38,184 nucleotides of DNA from positions 1 to 38,184 of IMG/VR virus record IMGVR_UViG_3300045996_001654, one strand, 5' to 3'. This DNA is from a virus. This document shows, piece by piece, positions 18,434 through 29,378 of this stretch. The position numbers were made by a program, and so were the translations under genes. Below the pieces are notes generated by a model that saw only the letters and a program-made list of their open reading frames with translations, was not told the DNA's origin and searched no databases. Numbering within the stretch: position 1 is the stretch's first letter; each line of letters begins with the position of its first letter.

Positions 18434-18724
18434 TCACGATTTGATGCGGCCGCCGAAGGCCCGCTCGATGGCTTTCTCGCGCCGCCTGTCGGCGGCGGTG
18501 ACCGGGCCCTCGACCCACCGGCCGTAGGCGTCGGCACCGTGCTGGTCGCGTAGGTGACCGGCGATGATGTTGAGCAGCAGCCTGGTCGAGATCAGGTCAG
18601 GCCATTGATGCGATCTTCGACCGACGCCAGCCCCGACGAGTCCGGGGTATCCGAGGCAGACGAGTTCGACGGTGTCGAAGTTGGCTGCTCCCCAGGCGGC
18701 GAGGTGGGCGGCTGCTCGGCTGCT
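18434..18724 (-). CDS. Tail assembly chaperone C-terminal extension (gpGT-type, -1 frameshift)
   Basis: This frame has no start of its own; it is reached from the upstream chaperone by a -1 slip at GGGAAAA (18724-18730). It adds 96 residues, helical and charged (RLLLNIIAGHLRDQHGADAY; ADRRREKAIERAFGGR), giving a 215-residue fusion. The pair matches lambda gpG/gpGT, where the fusion product and the short form help the tail tube assemble on the tape measure. Confidence 0.8.
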   Translation of the reverse strand, partial: SSRAAAHLAAWGAANFDTVELVCLGYPGLVGAGVGRRSHQWPDLISTRLLLNIIAGHLRDQHGADAYGRWVEGPVTAADRRREKAIERAFGGRIKS

Positions 18725-19080
18725 TTTCCCGCCTGCGCACCGACCAGCGTCCAGACCAGGTCGGTGAGGCTGTCGTCGTCGGCTTTCTTGCTCACGGCCA
18801 GCTGGTAGAAGCGGCGGAACTGTGTCCGGTCCTCCGGGATGGCCTCCCCGTCGGGGCCCTCGTGTGCCGGCTTGGTCAGGGCGGCCTGCAGGGCCTGCCA
18901 CATCGCGGCGTTGCCCTCGAACAGTCCGGCCTTGCCGGCCATGGCCGCGCCGAGGTGCAGCATGAGCATCGGCGGGATGACGCCCTCGACGGTGAACTCC
19001 TCACCGAACAGGTCGAACGTGTCGCGCTCGACGTCCGGGTCGAACTCCTTGACGGCGGCACTGAACGATCCGAGCTTCAC
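18592..19080 (-). CDS. Tail assembly chaperone (gpG-type)
   Basis: GTG 19080 gives 162 residues, overlapping the upstream stop (GTGA). A folded N-terminal part (DTFDLFGEEFTVEGVIPPML; GLFEGNAAMWQALQAALTKP) is followed by a Pro/Ser/Thr-rich tail after the slippery site. It lies immediately before the gp10-like and tape measure genes in transcription order, as in other siphoviruses. The zero frame ends at 18592. Confidence 0.8.
   Translation of the reverse strand: MKLGSFSAAVKEFDPDVERDTFDLFGEEFTVEGVIPPMLMLHLGAAMAGKAGLFEGNAAMWQALQAALTKPAHEGPDGEAIPEDRTQFRRFYQLAVSKKADDDSLTDLVWTLVGAQAGKAAEQPPTSPPGEQPTSTPSNSSASDTPDSSGLASVEDRINGLT
18724..18730 (-). promoter_or_regulatory. -1 ribosomal frameshift site GGGAAAA
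   Basis: On the minus strand G GGA AAA sits in the zero frame (codons for Gly-Lys after Ala). It fits the X XXY YYZ rule and is one base different from the lambda GGGAAAG site. The downstream -1 frame stays open for 96 codons and looks coding. Confidence 0.85.
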
Positions 19081-24879: not shown

Positions 24880-26334
24880 CTACGTGGTCAGGGTCAGGAC
24901 ACGGAAGGCGCCGGCGACTGACACATCGGCTCCAGTCCTCCAATACGCATACCATCCGCCCTGCCCCGTTGGCCTGCGGTTCGCCCCCAGGACGATCGGG
25001 TCGTAGACGACCGACATGCCGATCCGGTCGACGATGAAGTACTGGCGCATGTCACCGAACGCCAGGACCTTCGCCGCGTTGGCGTACGTGCCGGTGACGC
25101 TGGTCGACTCCATGAACGGGTAGCCGAGCAGCGTCGGGCCGTTCGGGCCGTCCTGCACGATCGACGTGGTCGAGCCGGTGAAGCTGGGCACGTTGCGCAG
25201 GGTGTTGATGGCGGTCATGTTCGCCACCCACGCCAGGCGGGCGCCCGGGCCCCGCCAGCGGGCCGGCAGGGCTGCCAGCATGCTGTACACCGACGCGGCG
25301 GTCGGGCCGGACGCGGCGGTACCGGCGGCCGCGGCCAGGGTCGTGCCGCGGGTGATCAGGCCGTAGGGCTGGCCCGAGCCGGTGCCGATCGCGAACGCCG
25401 CCTCCTCGAGGCGGTCCTTGGCGTCGGTGAGCAGCGTCGGCAGCTCCTGCGCCAGGTCGGAGTCGCCGAGGACCTCGTAGGAGCCGAACAGGTACGCGTC
25501 GGCCTTCTGCGGGGTGATCTTCAGCTGACCGAAGGTCGGGGACGCGTCCGCGGCCTCGATGCCTTCCGCCGTCCACTCCGCGCTGACGCCTGCGGTGGTG
25601 ACGCCGTTCCAGTCGTTCGTGGCGGTGGTCTTGATCGTGGCGAGCTGACGGTACGGGTTCGCCGACCCGTTGTTCGTCAGGATGATCGTCGGGTCCAGCG
25701 TGAACGGAACCAGGTACCCGCCGTTGGCCGGGGTCAGCGACAGCGCCGCACGCGAGCTGAATCCGGTCGGGTTAGTCATGTACTGCTGGAACGCCTCGAG
25801 GTACTCCGGCGTCGAGGTCTGCAGGATGTGCTCGGCGACGGCGGTGCCGAAGCGCGGGCCCATCTTCTCGACCATGCGGGTGACGTGCTCCGCGCCGTCG
25901 TGCTCGAGCTGCCAGTGATCCGAGCGGGTCGCGTACTTCTCGATCGCGGCCAGGCCCCGGGCCCGCAGGTCGGCCGGGCGCACCATGCCGTTGCGCACCG
26001 ACTCCATGTCGGCGTACGGGTCCAGGTTCCGCTTGATGTGCACGTCGGGGCCGGCGGCGCGGGTGACGGTGTCGGTGCCCGCCTCCTCGCGGTTGCCCTC
26101 GTTCGCCGCGGCGCGGGTGACGCGGGCGATGCGCTCCTCGCGCTCAGCCAGCGGCTTGAGTTCCTCGGCCAGCATGTCGGCTTCGGCAAGCAGGTCGTCG
26201 AGCCGCGTCGCCGCAGCCTCGTCGGCCTCACCCTTGGCGTCGAGCGCCTCCAGGACGCCCAGGTCGGACCGGATGGCCTGCATCCGGGTGCGGATCTCGT
26301 CCGCGCGCTTCAGACCCATGAGGGTCACTCCCAT
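24880..26334 (-). CDS. Major capsid protein, HK97 fold
   Basis: ATG 26334 overlaps the protease gene by 10 bases (alternative ATG 26319 avoids the overlap). The N-terminal ~110 residues are a charged coiled coil, the scaffold-like delta domain expected to be removed by the protease. The core shows NGGYLVPFTLDPTIIL and RQLATIKTTATNDW, then the typical FGSYEVLGDSDLAQELPTLL and ALPARWRGPGARLAWVANM, with strong resemblance to HK97-type capsids. Confidence 0.9.
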   Translation of the reverse strand: MGVTLMGLKRADEIRTRMQAIRSDLGVLEALDAKGEADEAAATRLDDLLAEADMLAEELKPLAEREERIARVTRAAANEGNREEAGTDTVTRAAGPDVHIKRNLDPYADMESVRNGMVRPADLRARGLAAIEKYATRSDHWQLEHDGAEHVTRMVEKMGPRFGTAVAEHILQTSTPEYLEAFQQYMTNPTGFSSRAALSLTPANGGYLVPFTLDPTIILTNNGSANPYRQLATIKTTATNDWNGVTTAGVSAEWTAEGIEAADASPTFGQLKITPQKADAYLFGSYEVLGDSDLAQELPTLLTDAKDRLEEAAFAIGTGSGQPYGLITRGTTLAAAAGTAASGPTAASVYSMLAALPARWRGPGARLAWVANMTAINTLRNVPSFTGSTTSIVQDGPNGPTLLGYPFMESTSVTGTYANAAKVLAFGDMRQYFIVDRIGMSVVYDPIVLGANRRPTGQGGWYAYWRTGADVSVAGAFRVLTLTT

Positions 26335-27119
26335 CCTCGTGCGATTCGAGCCGCGCGGATGCGCATGCTCAGGGGGATGGACCGGGAGTGGCGCGGGGCC
26401 GGGTCGTCGGTCACAGGCACGGCGTCGTCCGGTTCGACCGGAGTGCCGTCATTGCCCACCCGTTCCGGGTCCACCTCGTCGCCGAGGGGAGTGGCCAGGT
26501 GGTCGAGCTGGTCGAGCAGGGCCGAGCGGCGCTCAGCCGGGGCGGCGAGCAGGCCGGCGAGGACCTGCTGCGCGCGGATGCCGGTGATGGCGGCGCCGGC
26601 GAACGCCGGGAACGGCGTCGGACCAAACTCGCGCATCGCGACCTCCATGCGGGTCACCGTGCGGAGCTGGCCGCCGGCGCTGCGCCGGAAGCCGCCGCGG
26701 GGCGGATTCGGGTCCGAGCGGATGAAACGGCCCCCGTACGACTGGGCCTTGACCGCACCCATGCGGATCGCCTCGAGGACCTCGTCGGCGAGCTCGCTGT
26801 TGCCGTACTCCGAGATCGTCAGCACGCCGCGCTTGTCGACGCGGACTTCCTTGCTGACGCCGATCGGGACGCTGCCGCGGTCGGACGGGGTGCCGGCGAT
26901 GGTCATGCCGTGGTTGTAGACCACCGGGAAGCCGCCCTGACGGTGCGCGATGGTGCGGGCGAACGCCGTCGGGTGGTTCACCTCGAAGTAGTGGCCGTCG
27001 GCGTCGATGATCTCAGCGGGCTCGCCGAAGATCGCGGCGTACGCCTCGACGGTGCGGCCGGTGCCACCGGATCGGATCCGGATGTCATCGAGCGCTACGG
27101 CGCGGATGAAGTCGGTCAT
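26325..27119 (-). CDS. HK97-type prohead protease (S78 family)
   Basis: ATG 27119 gives 264 residues. The protease domain includes VVYNHG (catalytic His70) and VKAQSYGGRF (catalytic Ser127), with VEAYAAIFGEP at the start, the standard S78 pattern. It would process the capsid delta domain. The C-terminal 60 residues are acidic and then basic and may help it enter the prohead. Confidence 0.85.
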   Translation of the reverse strand: MTDFIRAVALDDIRIRSGGTGRTVEAYAAIFGEPAEIIDADGHYFEVNHPTAFARTIAHRQGGFPVVYNHGMTIAGTPSDRGSVPIGVSKEVRVDKRGVLTISEYGNSELADEVLEAIRMGAVKAQSYGGRFIRSDPNPPRGGFRRSAGGQLRTVTRMEVAMREFGPTPFPAFAGAAITGIRAQQVLAGLLAAPAERRSALLDQLDHLATPLGDEVDPERVGNDGTPVEPDDAVPVTDDPAPRHSRSIPLSMRIRAARIARGWE

Positions 27120-27808
27120 TTCATTCCTCCAGCCGTGCCGATGAGATTGTCGACAGCCTTGATGATCTTGTTGGCGGTTGCGGGCGAACCCACGTAGAAC
27201 GGCTCACGCAGCGCGTCGGCGTTGCCCGGTGCCGGGTCGATCGCCAGCGACCACGACCCGCCCGGGCCCAGGTCGGCGCCGCCGACGGAGTAGTCGTCGC
27301 CCTCGTCGCGCATCAGCTTCCAGTGCACGTCGCCCCAGGCAGAGCCGGGCACGGTGCCCTCGGCGATGTCCGCCTCGGGGCTGGGCCACTGGTCGGCCGG
27401 CCGGTCCTCTTTGTGGGCCTGGCGCAGCTCGGCGCGGAACTCGGCGACGTTGGCCTTGCCGTCGGTCACCGCCTTGGCGACGACGTCGCGCAGACCGCGG
27501 GCGCCGACGGTGTCCAGCTCGACGGTGCGGCCCTTGTTGCCGGCCTGCCACTTGCGGGTGTCCTCCGGGTTGACCACGCCCAGCCGCAGCTTGGTGCCGT
27601 CCGGGCCGTCGATGCGGGCCATCACCACGGTCTGGTCACCGGCCTGGTCGTGGATGCGGGCACTGCCGGCGAACGTCTCACCCGCGGCGAGTTCGATGCG
27701 GCCGGCCAGCTTCAGTGGGTCGCCGGCGGGGCCGGGGATGCCGTCGGACCACTGGCCGTCCGGGTCGCGCTTCTGCGCTGGGTTGAAGGCGCGGGAACGG
27801 TCGGCGCT
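27116..27808 (-). CDS. Downstream domain reachable by -1 frameshift from portal
   Basis: A 230-residue frame in which no ATG, GTG or TTG occurs before GTG 27628, yet codons upstream of that GTG already look coding (DPDGQWSDG; KLAGRIELAAGETFAGS). It is joined to the portal at CCCAAAA, 27808-27814, in the -1 frame. Residues after 60 are charged and helical with AEFRAELRQAHKEDRP. It resembles small minor head proteins with an RDPDGQW start, found next to portals in actinophages. A separate start at 27628 cannot be excluded. Confidence 0.6.
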   Translation of the reverse strand, partial: SADRSRAFNPAQKRDPDGQWSDGIPGPAGDPLKLAGRIELAAGETFAGSARIHDQAGDQTVVMARIDGPDGTKLRLGVVNPEDTRKWQAGNKGRTVELDTVGARGLRDVVAKAVTDGKANVAEFRAELRQAHKEDRPADQWPSPEADIAEGTVPGSAWGDVHWKLMRDEGDDYSVGGADLGPGGSWSLAIDPAPGNADALREPFYVGSPATANKIIKAVDNLIGTAGGMK

Positions 27809-29157
27809 TTTGGGTCGGCACCACCTGCCGTCGTCCCGGGCGGCTGCAGCTGCACGCTGACCAGACCGGAGTGCACCAGCAGTGTCGTGTCCTCGGCCTC
27901 GACCGCGCGGGCCGCAGAGTCGGGGGTGAAGCCGTCGCGGACGTACGCCACGATCGTCTGCGCCTTGATCAGCTCGATTTCGGCGGCGTCCTTGCGGTCC
28001 TCTTGCAGGAAGCTGATCTCCGACTTGTCGTACCAGAGCTCGGAGTCGACCTCACCGGTGCGCGGGTCCGTCGGCGCCTCGACGATCGTGGCCAGCGCGG
28101 CGAACATCGACGACCACAGCGGGTACAGGGTGCGGTCAGCGACCAGCCGGCACGCCGCCCGGAAGTTCCCCGCGTTCAGCGACGAACCGGACAGGCCCTC
28201 CGACAGGGCCGCCACGACCGGGTGCACGCCCGACGCCGCGGCGATGCGGGTCTCACCGGCACCCTGGGTGGCCTTGAAGTCCAGCTGATGGAGATCCTTG
28301 CCGACCACATGCGGGGTGGCGCCCTGCAGGGCCAGGGTGCGGTAGGCGTTGTTCGCGCCGACGTGCGAGGCGTTGATCGTCTGCATCATCTGCAGCATCT
28401 GGTCACGCTTGATCGTCGGGTCGAGCTGGAGGAACAGCTGCGGCGTCGCGCCGTTCTCGAAGAACTTGCCCTTGTGGATCGTCGCGCCCAGGTCGGAGTC
28501 GACCTCGCGCAGGGCAGCGGTCGGCCAAGGGATCCCGCGGTACGCGGCGAGGGGGTCGGGGATGGGCGCCCACACGGCGACCTCGTCGGCGAGCAGGATC
28601 TGCGGCTCCCGGCCGGAGCCCTTGCCGCCCGGGTGGTACATGACGCCGAGGAAGTCCGCATCCAGGGCGAACTGGGCGTCGGCGTCCGGGTCGTCGTACG
28701 AGCCCAGGATCATCGTCACCCAGTCGGGCCGCATCCGCAGCAGCCGGTCCGGGCGCTCCCGGCGGCGGCCGACGAACGCCGTACCACCGAACGCCGCGTC
28801 CAGCTCCATCTTCGCGGCCAGGGACGCGAACGTGCCGCCCGGCCACGGGTTCTCCAGCACCGACAGCTCGCGCGTGCCGAACAGGTCACCGCGGCGGCCG
28901 TTACGCAGCCGGCGCCACACCGGCCGGGCCTGGCTGATCAGCGCCATCCGGGTGAGTTCGCAGGAGGCGACGACGGCGTTGCCCTTGAAGCCGCGGGTGA
29001 CCAGGGCAGCGAAGTCGCCGGAGATGCCCTCGTGGCCGGGCTCCCACGCCGACAGGATGCTGTTCCAGTACTGGTTGCCCTGGAACAGGTGGTAATCGTC
29101 GTGGCGTTCCGCCTGAACGCCCAGCGAGCGGGTGACGGCGCGCAGCAGGTTCGTCAC
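27712..29157 (-). CDS. Portal protein
   Basis: GTG 29157 overlaps the preceding stop (GTGA). The 481 residues include FQGNQYWNSILSAWEPGHEG, SLAAKMELDAAFGGTAFVGR, PDWVTMILGSYDDPDADAQF, and a C-terminal helix with ALSEGLSGSSLNAGNFRAAC, all typical of HK97-type portals. In the zero frame the last 31 residues are low-complexity (PSTQRRSATRTASG), which looks like out-of-frame sequence after the slippery site. The -1 product would be 680 residues. Confidence 0.85.
   Translation of the reverse strand: MTNLLRAVTRSLGVQAERHDDYHLFQGNQYWNSILSAWEPGHEGISGDFAALVTRGFKGNAVVASCELTRMALISQARPVWRRLRNGRRGDLFGTRELSVLENPWPGGTFASLAAKMELDAAFGGTAFVGRRRERPDRLLRMRPDWVTMILGSYDDPDADAQFALDADFLGVMYHPGGKGSGREPQILLADEVAVWAPIPDPLAAYRGIPWPTAALREVDSDLGATIHKGKFFENGATPQLFLQLDPTIKRDQMLQMMQTINASHVGANNAYRTLALQGATPHVVGKDLHQLDFKATQGAGETRIAAASGVHPVVAALSEGLSGSSLNAGNFRAACRLVADRTLYPLWSSMFAALATIVEAPTDPRTGEVDSELWYDKSEISFLQEDRKDAAEIELIKAQTIVAYVRDGFTPDSAARAVEAEDTTLLVHSGLVSVQLQPPGTTAGGADPKAPTVPAPSTQRRSATRTASGPTASPAPPATH
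27808..27814 (-). promoter_or_regulatory. Candidate -1 frameshift site CCCAAAA in portal gene
   Basis: On the minus strand C CCA AAA lies in the zero frame (codons CCA AAA, after GAC). The X XXY YYZ form is satisfied, and A-runs are rare in this high-GC genome. Slipping back one base enters the open frame that ends at 27116. Confidence 0.7.
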
Positions 29158-29378
29158 CGGTACCGCACCCCCGCCTGGTCGTTGTCGTAGGGCAACGGTT
29201 CGTCGACGCTGTACAGCAGGACGAAGTAAGCGACCATGCCGACACCCGCTGCGATCAGGGCCCAGCCTAGGCCCAGCACCAACCACAGACCGGAACTGAT
29301 CAGCAGCAGGCCGGCGAAGTAGCCGGACCGGGCCCGCGCCGCCCGGGTAATCCGGCGCGGCCGCCGGGACTTAGACAT
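29154..29378 (-). CDS. Small two-helix membrane protein, 74 aa
   Basis: ATG 29378, overlapping the upstream stop (ATGTCTAA). A basic N-terminus (KSRRPRRITR) is followed by two hydrophobic helices at about residues 20-38 and 39-57 and an acidic end. It is a membrane protein inside the head gene module, an unusual place. An extended start at ATG 29402 is possible. Function unknown. Confidence 0.55.
   Translation of the reverse strand: MSKSRRPRRITRAARARSGYFAGLLLISSGLWLVLGLGWALIAAGVGMVAYFVLLYSVDEPLPYDNDQAGVRYR

Follow-up and report, generated by a model that had tools for sequence, protein, structure and literature searches.

Evidence for a putative programmed -1 frameshift in the portal gene of an environmental phage, and recurrence of its slip site where head proteins meet extension modules

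Introduction

The virus DNA studied here (IMG/VR record IMGVR_UViG_3300045996_001654, positions 1 to 38,184; the whole stretch of 38,184 nucleotides (nt) is called the window below) raises the question of how its portal gene is read, given that the gene ends in a short low-complexity tail and overlaps a second, long open frame lacking a start codon. A sequence-only reading of this locus had proposed that a CCCAAAA heptamer directs a programmed -1 frameshift, by which the phage would make a portal of 481 residues and a minor portal fusion of 680 residues. The window was compared with relatives on environmental contigs (numbered L001 and onwards), and the frameshift interpretation was supported, withstanding in computational tests both a sequencing indel and homologues with separate starts. 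At a probability of about 0.87, the comparisons point to programmed -1 frameshifting in the portal gene that yields a short portal and a minor portal-domain fusion. The features on which the argument turns are as follows.

27712 to 29157, minus strand: portal protein, the zero-frame product of 481 amino acids (aa), with a GTG start (PF04860, 3.7e-18; phrog_2662 and phrog_12, portal)
27808 to 27814, minus strand: slippery heptamer CCCAAAA, which the portal frame splits as C CCA AAA (Pro449-Lys450)
27712 to 27807, minus strand: zero-frame tail past the heptamer, 31 low-complexity residues and TGA (27712-27714), overlapping the conserved -1 frame
27116 to 27814, minus strand: -1 frame extension, Pro and Lys plus 230 residues, ending in TGA (27116-27118)
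27728 to 27787, minus strand: conserved tag FNPAQKRDPDGQWSDGIPGP, read in the -1 frame; all possible start codons lie downstream of it
27626 to 27628, minus strand: GTG, the first conventional start codon of the -1 frame, 186 nt after the heptamer

Results

Reading the frames again placed the heptamer where the sequence-only reading had it, within the portal-frame codons GAC CCA AAA GCG, and both product lengths proved right. The 31 zero-frame residues past it are rich in Pro/Ser/Thr/Arg, and the -1 frame, which reads CCC AAA AGC ... and is translated PKSADRSRAFNPAQKRDPDGQWSDGIPGP..., stays open for the 230 codons that had been claimed (232 with P and K included), portal and extension together giving the 680-aa fusion. 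As had also been claimed, the -1 frame contains no ATG, GTG or TTG before GTG 27628, that is, until +186 nt, and none is found in its 79 open codons upstream of the heptamer.

The G+C content at third codon positions (GC3) was 0.91 in the -1 frame in comparison to 0.72 in the zero frame. The extension is 74% identical to its counterpart in L001, 59% to that in L002, 58% to L056, 50% to L066 and 46% to L069, and the homology of the -1 frame reaches back to about 9 codons after the heptamer (about +27 nt), which is about 50 codons before any start. The differences between the window and L056 in the overlap are distributed 7, 4 and 11 over positions 1, 2 and 3 of the -1 codons, and therefore the -1 frame is the constrained frame within a few codons of the heptamer. 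Tags resembling FNPAQKRDPDGQWSDGIPGP were found in L001, L002, L025-L028, L033, L050, L054-L064 and L066-L071. Judged from these comparisons the -1 frame is really coding, which bears out, by homology as well as by GC3, the earlier impression that the codons preceding 27628 look coding; because conserved coding lies upstream of GTG 27628, this codon was judged not to be the real start.

The domain could alternatively be a separate protein, begun at GTG 27628 or by termination-reinitiation at a CTG overlapping the portal stop (CTGA, 27712-27715). A GTG is indeed present at 27628, the ordered fold predicted for the extension begins only at about residue 33-46, and a coupled ATGA start is used in L001 and L002, where the domain opens a separate protein of 595-596 aa whose own ATG overlaps the portal stop. 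However, both sites would leave the tag untranslated though it is kept at the protein level in the -1 frame, and L054, L056, L059 and L069 likewise have no start codon between heptamer and tag; CTG, moreover, is rare as a bacterial start. We consider an internal start improbable. Separate-start homologues, which the sequence-only reading had listed as evidence that would speak against a frameshift, do exist, but they lack the heptamer, and in the alignment at this place (MTERIMAAWSPGQKRD / KSADRSRAFNPAQKRD) their ATG is aligned precisely with the AAA of CCCAAAA. The window has thus lost the coupled, separate start.

The missing ATG could also indicate that the domain is a decaying insertion from an L001-like phage, a pseudogene that is no longer made, and the closest portals (L003-L007, 65-85% identical to that of the window) carry no domain, with the protease directly behind the portal or a small gene behind it. 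These portals mark the domain as an acquisition, and no in-frame X XXA AAZ occurs in 20 portals of the window's close-relative kind; domain and heptamer are therefore peculiar to the window's lineage among them. Against decay stand the 230 stop-free codons, the high GC3 and a frame intact in comparison to homologues that are 46-74% identical, as well as the same start-less state in L056, L059, L069 and L054, and we regard decay as highly improbable.

Recurrence of the slip site

The 8-mer CCCAAAAG was found in frame at 25 further junctions on environmental contigs, where a head protein meets an extension module, and in every case in a register in which the upstream gene reads C CCA AAA. The upstream proteins were PF04860 portals, belonging to groups too distant for BLASTP, Mu-type portals (PF06074) and, once, an S78 protease (L057). 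In group A (L054, L056, L059, L069, L058 and L060) the polarity is that of the window, with a zero frame that stops and a -1 frame that is the extension; in group B (L027, L036, L038, L041, L045, L048-L050, L055, L057, L061-L064, L066-L068, L070 and L071) it is reversed, the zero frame being the extension and the -1 frame stopping after 3-20 codons. The portal of L054 is about 48% identical to that of the window, and that of L056 has no BLASTP-detectable similarity to it, yet also belongs to PF04860. A search pattern that imposed no frame on the tag gave 18 matches, of which 17 lay at head-protein junctions and had the heptamer in the C CCA AAA register, several of them being near-copies. The matches in L051-L053 and L065 were discarded as unrelated chance matches. 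Relatives of the window's own extension occur in L056, L059, L069 and L058 of group A and in L066 of group B, which together with L001 and L002 means that a single domain family occurs in three arrangements: on a gene of its own, in the -1 frame behind the slip site and in the zero frame behind it.

This recurrence bears on the possibility that a sequencing or assembly indel has split one continuous portal-domain open reading frame (ORF), of the kind seen in L066 and L027, both in-frame portal fusions with a member of this domain family. Four other contigs (L054, L056, L059 and L069) repeat the frame relation of the window at an identical heptamer, the zero frame of each ending within 20-34 codons, and the structural genes of the window that were checked are otherwise intact, apart from one expected tail-chaperone frameshift. 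The chance that an indel accounts for the arrangement appears very small.

Comparison of the DNA on the two sides of the heptamer indicates that extensions are swapped just past it while the portals stay alike. The portals of L054 and L059 share 96% protein identity, and DNA identity between them is 91% in the 300 nt that end at the heptamer in comparison to 42% from 108 to 608 nt past it; the values for L055 and L061 in the same intervals are 99% and 38%, and L062 and L064 go the opposite way, with 56% before and 94% past the heptamer. Since extensions are swapped right behind CCCAAAAG, which adjoins unrelated head genes, it could be argued that the 8-mer is a DNA junction for module exchange that has no role in translation. 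A pure recombination site, however, would not protect frames, and eight bases are short for homologous exchange, while the register is fixed, the extensions at CCCAAAAG junctions lie in the 0 or -1 frame with no case in +1, the other frame soon meets a stop, and CCCAAAAG persists at genome GC contents of 49-70% while its flanks diverge. A purely recombinational role is thus rated as quite improbable.

Several junctions have features of their own. In L057 (3804-6296, plus strand) the CCCAAAAG junction and tag stand behind an S78 prohead protease, not a portal. In L060 (1387-2748, plus strand) the protein upstream of CCCAAAAG is Mu-type portal/MuF-like, the -1 frame past the 8-mer encodes a zeta-toxin domain, and an ATG 18 nt after the heptamer (TCATGA overlap) makes a double expression route possible. 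L027 (2900-6859, plus strand) and L036 (2907-7244, plus strand, running off the end) encode portal polyproteins of more than 1300-1440 residues with several repeated modules, which by eye include an RDP-tag, a HPGGEELKHYWVYGEGAAKW module and kinase- or ADP-ribosyltransferase-like ends.

Chance occurrence

The heptamer exceeds what chance would give. Among the confidently assigned structural genes of the window, 5,212 codons in all, it was the only in-frame X XXA AAZ, the other one of the phage being the GGGAAAA of the chaperone at 18730. In the ten portal ORFs first examined, the background of other in-frame XXXAAAZ was 2 in 10,505 codons, or about 0.9% per 45-codon junction, and CCA made up 9% of the Pro codons and AAA 14% of the Lys codons. 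Among portals from searches that were not selected for the heptamer, it was present in 4 of 7 fused in comparison to 0 of 25 unextended ones (Fisher p = 9.7e-4).

Candidate stimulators and the neighbouring genes

Shine-Dalgarno (SD)-like elements about 10 nt before a slip site stimulate -1 shifts, as in dnaX. The window has such an element close to the heptamer, and two further features lie in other parts of the window.

27820 to 27826, minus strand: SD-like AGGTGGT, candidate 5' stimulator, 5 nt upstream of the heptamer
26325 to 27119, minus strand: S78 prohead protease (PF04586, 5.5e-11), whose ATG overlaps the TGA of the extension (ATGA)
18724 to 18730, minus strand: tail assembly chaperone slip site GGGAAAA, the phage's conventional -1 site, taken as internal comparison

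A GGTGRT-type element at exactly 5-nt spacing was found in the window, L041, L045, L048, L049, L054, L056, L059, L066 and L069, with GTGGT in its place in L057, the protease case, and an SD-like element at this spacing is present in most GC-rich cases. The GGTGRT-type element, a candidate stimulator, could base-pair with the 3' end of 16S ribosomal RNA (rRNA). The GGGAAAA at the chaperone pair is likewise in frame, with a T-like -1 continuation AQAGGKSSRAAAHLAAW....

The upstream product is an HK97-type portal, with PF04860 covering residues 81-318, TerL upstream and the S78 protease downstream. A second in-frame GTG lies upstream of the portal start, at 29286.

Nature of the extensions

In two AlphaFold2 models of the window's extension, with predicted local distance difference test (pLDDT) scores of 74 and 71, a disordered tag of about 33 residues is followed by a two-repeat sheet-helix fold, the PUR-like part of which is predicted from about residue 46. 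The top PDB matches of both models in Foldseek were the PUR repeats of Pur-alpha, with E values of 1.8e-4 and 2.7e-6 and a probability of 1.0, at template modelling (TM) scores of only 0.3-0.54 and with no Pfam sequence-family match. The extension is accordingly predicted as a tandem PUR-like fold, and it probably binds nucleic acid, which the models offer as a lead, not as a result. Related extensions contain an ADP-ribosyltransferase (L038), SAP (L045 and L048), a zeta toxin (L060) or MuF (L055), and MuF and toxins are confined to them, the window's portal and extension having no MuF or toxin match in Pfam or PHROGs.

The window's extension had no match in Pfam, PHROGs or cultured phages, and scans of genome contigs gave no relative; environmental contigs are therefore the only source from which its family is known here. 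The portals do have counterparts in cultured phages, but unextended ones, and searching these phages with the relatives' extensions or the tag alone gave no match either. Three relatives carry the tag in other settings. In L026 (3640-6840, plus strand) a separate gene overlapping the portal end, with its own GTG start and without heptamer, joins the tag domain to PG_binding_1 and a PI3/PI4-kinase-like (HipA-like) end. L033 (5482-7590, plus strand), a low-GC phage, lacks CCCAAAA but has a direct in-frame fusion in which a similar tag, FDPNQKRDKDGQWSDGG, connects the portal with a GNAT-like domain. L028 (4613-7945, plus strand) has a single ORF of 1110 aa in which, by eye, tag domain, peptidoglycan-binding-like part, protease-like part and major capsid-like C-terminus appear to be joined.

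Discussion

The architecture of the locus, its repetition in other phages, and the constraint on both the heptamer and the -1 frame can be read from the compared sequences themselves, and from them we infer the frameshift, its efficiency, the assembly of its product into virions and its function. In this scheme most ribosomes would stay in the zero frame at C CCA AAA and continue through a meaningless 31-codon tail to the stop, giving the ordinary portal of 481 aa, and a minority would slip to CCC AAA A and read 230 more codons, giving a 680-aa portal with a tag-linked extra domain. Base pairing between 16S rRNA and the SD-like AGGTGGT, 5 nt before the heptamer, would probably aid the slip. 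The 12-subunit ring would then include a few extended subunits, their extra domain lying inside the head; entry of the fusion into the virion is presumed here, as is the label of internal head protein given to the domain by the sequence-only reading. Where the polarity is reversed, frameshifting would instead yield the short form, and the ring would avoid having hundreds of extra residues on each of its twelve subunits. Transcriptional slippage was dismissed because a run of four A's is too short for it.

Several observations weigh against programmed frameshifting or limit how far it extends. L058 and L060 carry the heptamer but also an ATG close behind it. Portal fusions without heptamer exist (L033, L039 and L042), and L026, L001 and L002 use separate starts, so that frameshifting is not obligatory for the domain family. 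In the zero-frame fusions the short distance to the -1 stop is only weakly unusual (combined p = 0.022). A conserved downstream hairpin was sought but not found; hairpins are possible, with folding energies mostly within 2 standard deviations of shuffles. Many of the CCCAAAAG junctions came from patterns that contain CCCAAAAG, and several are near-copies of one another, so that their count expresses recurrence, not prevalence.

Among known systems, the tail assembly chaperone -1 frameshift of double-stranded DNA phages (lambda gpG/gpG-T) was reportedly described by Xu, Hendrix and Duda in 2004. The window resembles it in having an X XXY YYZ heptamer, a minor C-terminally extended product and a short low-complexity zero-frame end, and differs from it in that the site acts on the portal, the 12-subunit head-entry ring, and the extension is a swappable domain. 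The 10A/10B proteins of phage T7 are an example of a frameshifted capsid extension. Such extensions, known also from Orsay virus and carboxysome cso2 (PMC5009743), likewise give a fraction of shell subunits a C-terminal extension, but on a shell protein, not on a portal. The tau/gamma frameshift of dnaX is known in both polarities, the zero-frame-stop version in a few bacteria (Atkins and colleagues, PMC5009743), and is similar in that -1 slippage, with an SD-like stimulator lying upstream, decides whether the product has its C-terminal domain; unlike the portal case, it concerns a cellular DNA polymerase gene, slips at A AAA AAG and gives products at nearly 1:1. The MuF polymorphic toxins of temperate phages also combine a head protein, one beside the portal, with swappable C-terminal toxins, ADP-ribosyltransferases among them (PMC5576092, which does not mention frameshifting once), whereas here the extensions are attached to the portal or protease, through a slip site.

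Microbacterium phages of clusters EA and EB have portal-MuF fusion proteins encoded by single genes, which also unite portal and an extra head domain in one protein; the passages covered of that article (PMC7302621) describe no portal frameshift. This amends the sequence-only reading, which knew of no described portal fusion of its kind: because direct portal fusions are already known, the novelty lies in the frameshift and not in the fusion. Within titles, abstracts and passages of the literature that name the portal with frameshift terms, a body of partial coverage with few subscription journals, no earlier report of a portal-gene frameshift was found. New, then, would be the frameshift in a portal gene; known are -1 frameshifts in tail chaperones, capsid extensions and dnaX.

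We put at even odds a wider proposal, in which CCCAAAAG and the SD-like element form a widespread, mobile and regulatory junction that hangs exchangeable effectors (PUR-like, zeta toxin, ADP-ribosyltransferase, MuF, SAP and others) on a fraction of the portal or protease subunits of environmental tailed phages, with frameshifting of either polarity setting the copies carried and delivered per virion. Portals are 12-fold rings for DNA packaging and release whose subunits are usually assumed to be alike. If the frameshift is true, a slip site that extends some subunits would be a genetically set break of portal uniformity, and head-borne proteins, toxins among them, would be loaded in controlled numbers. 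It would also account for a type of gene in which annotation pipelines would see two pieces, a truncated portal and a fragment lacking a start.
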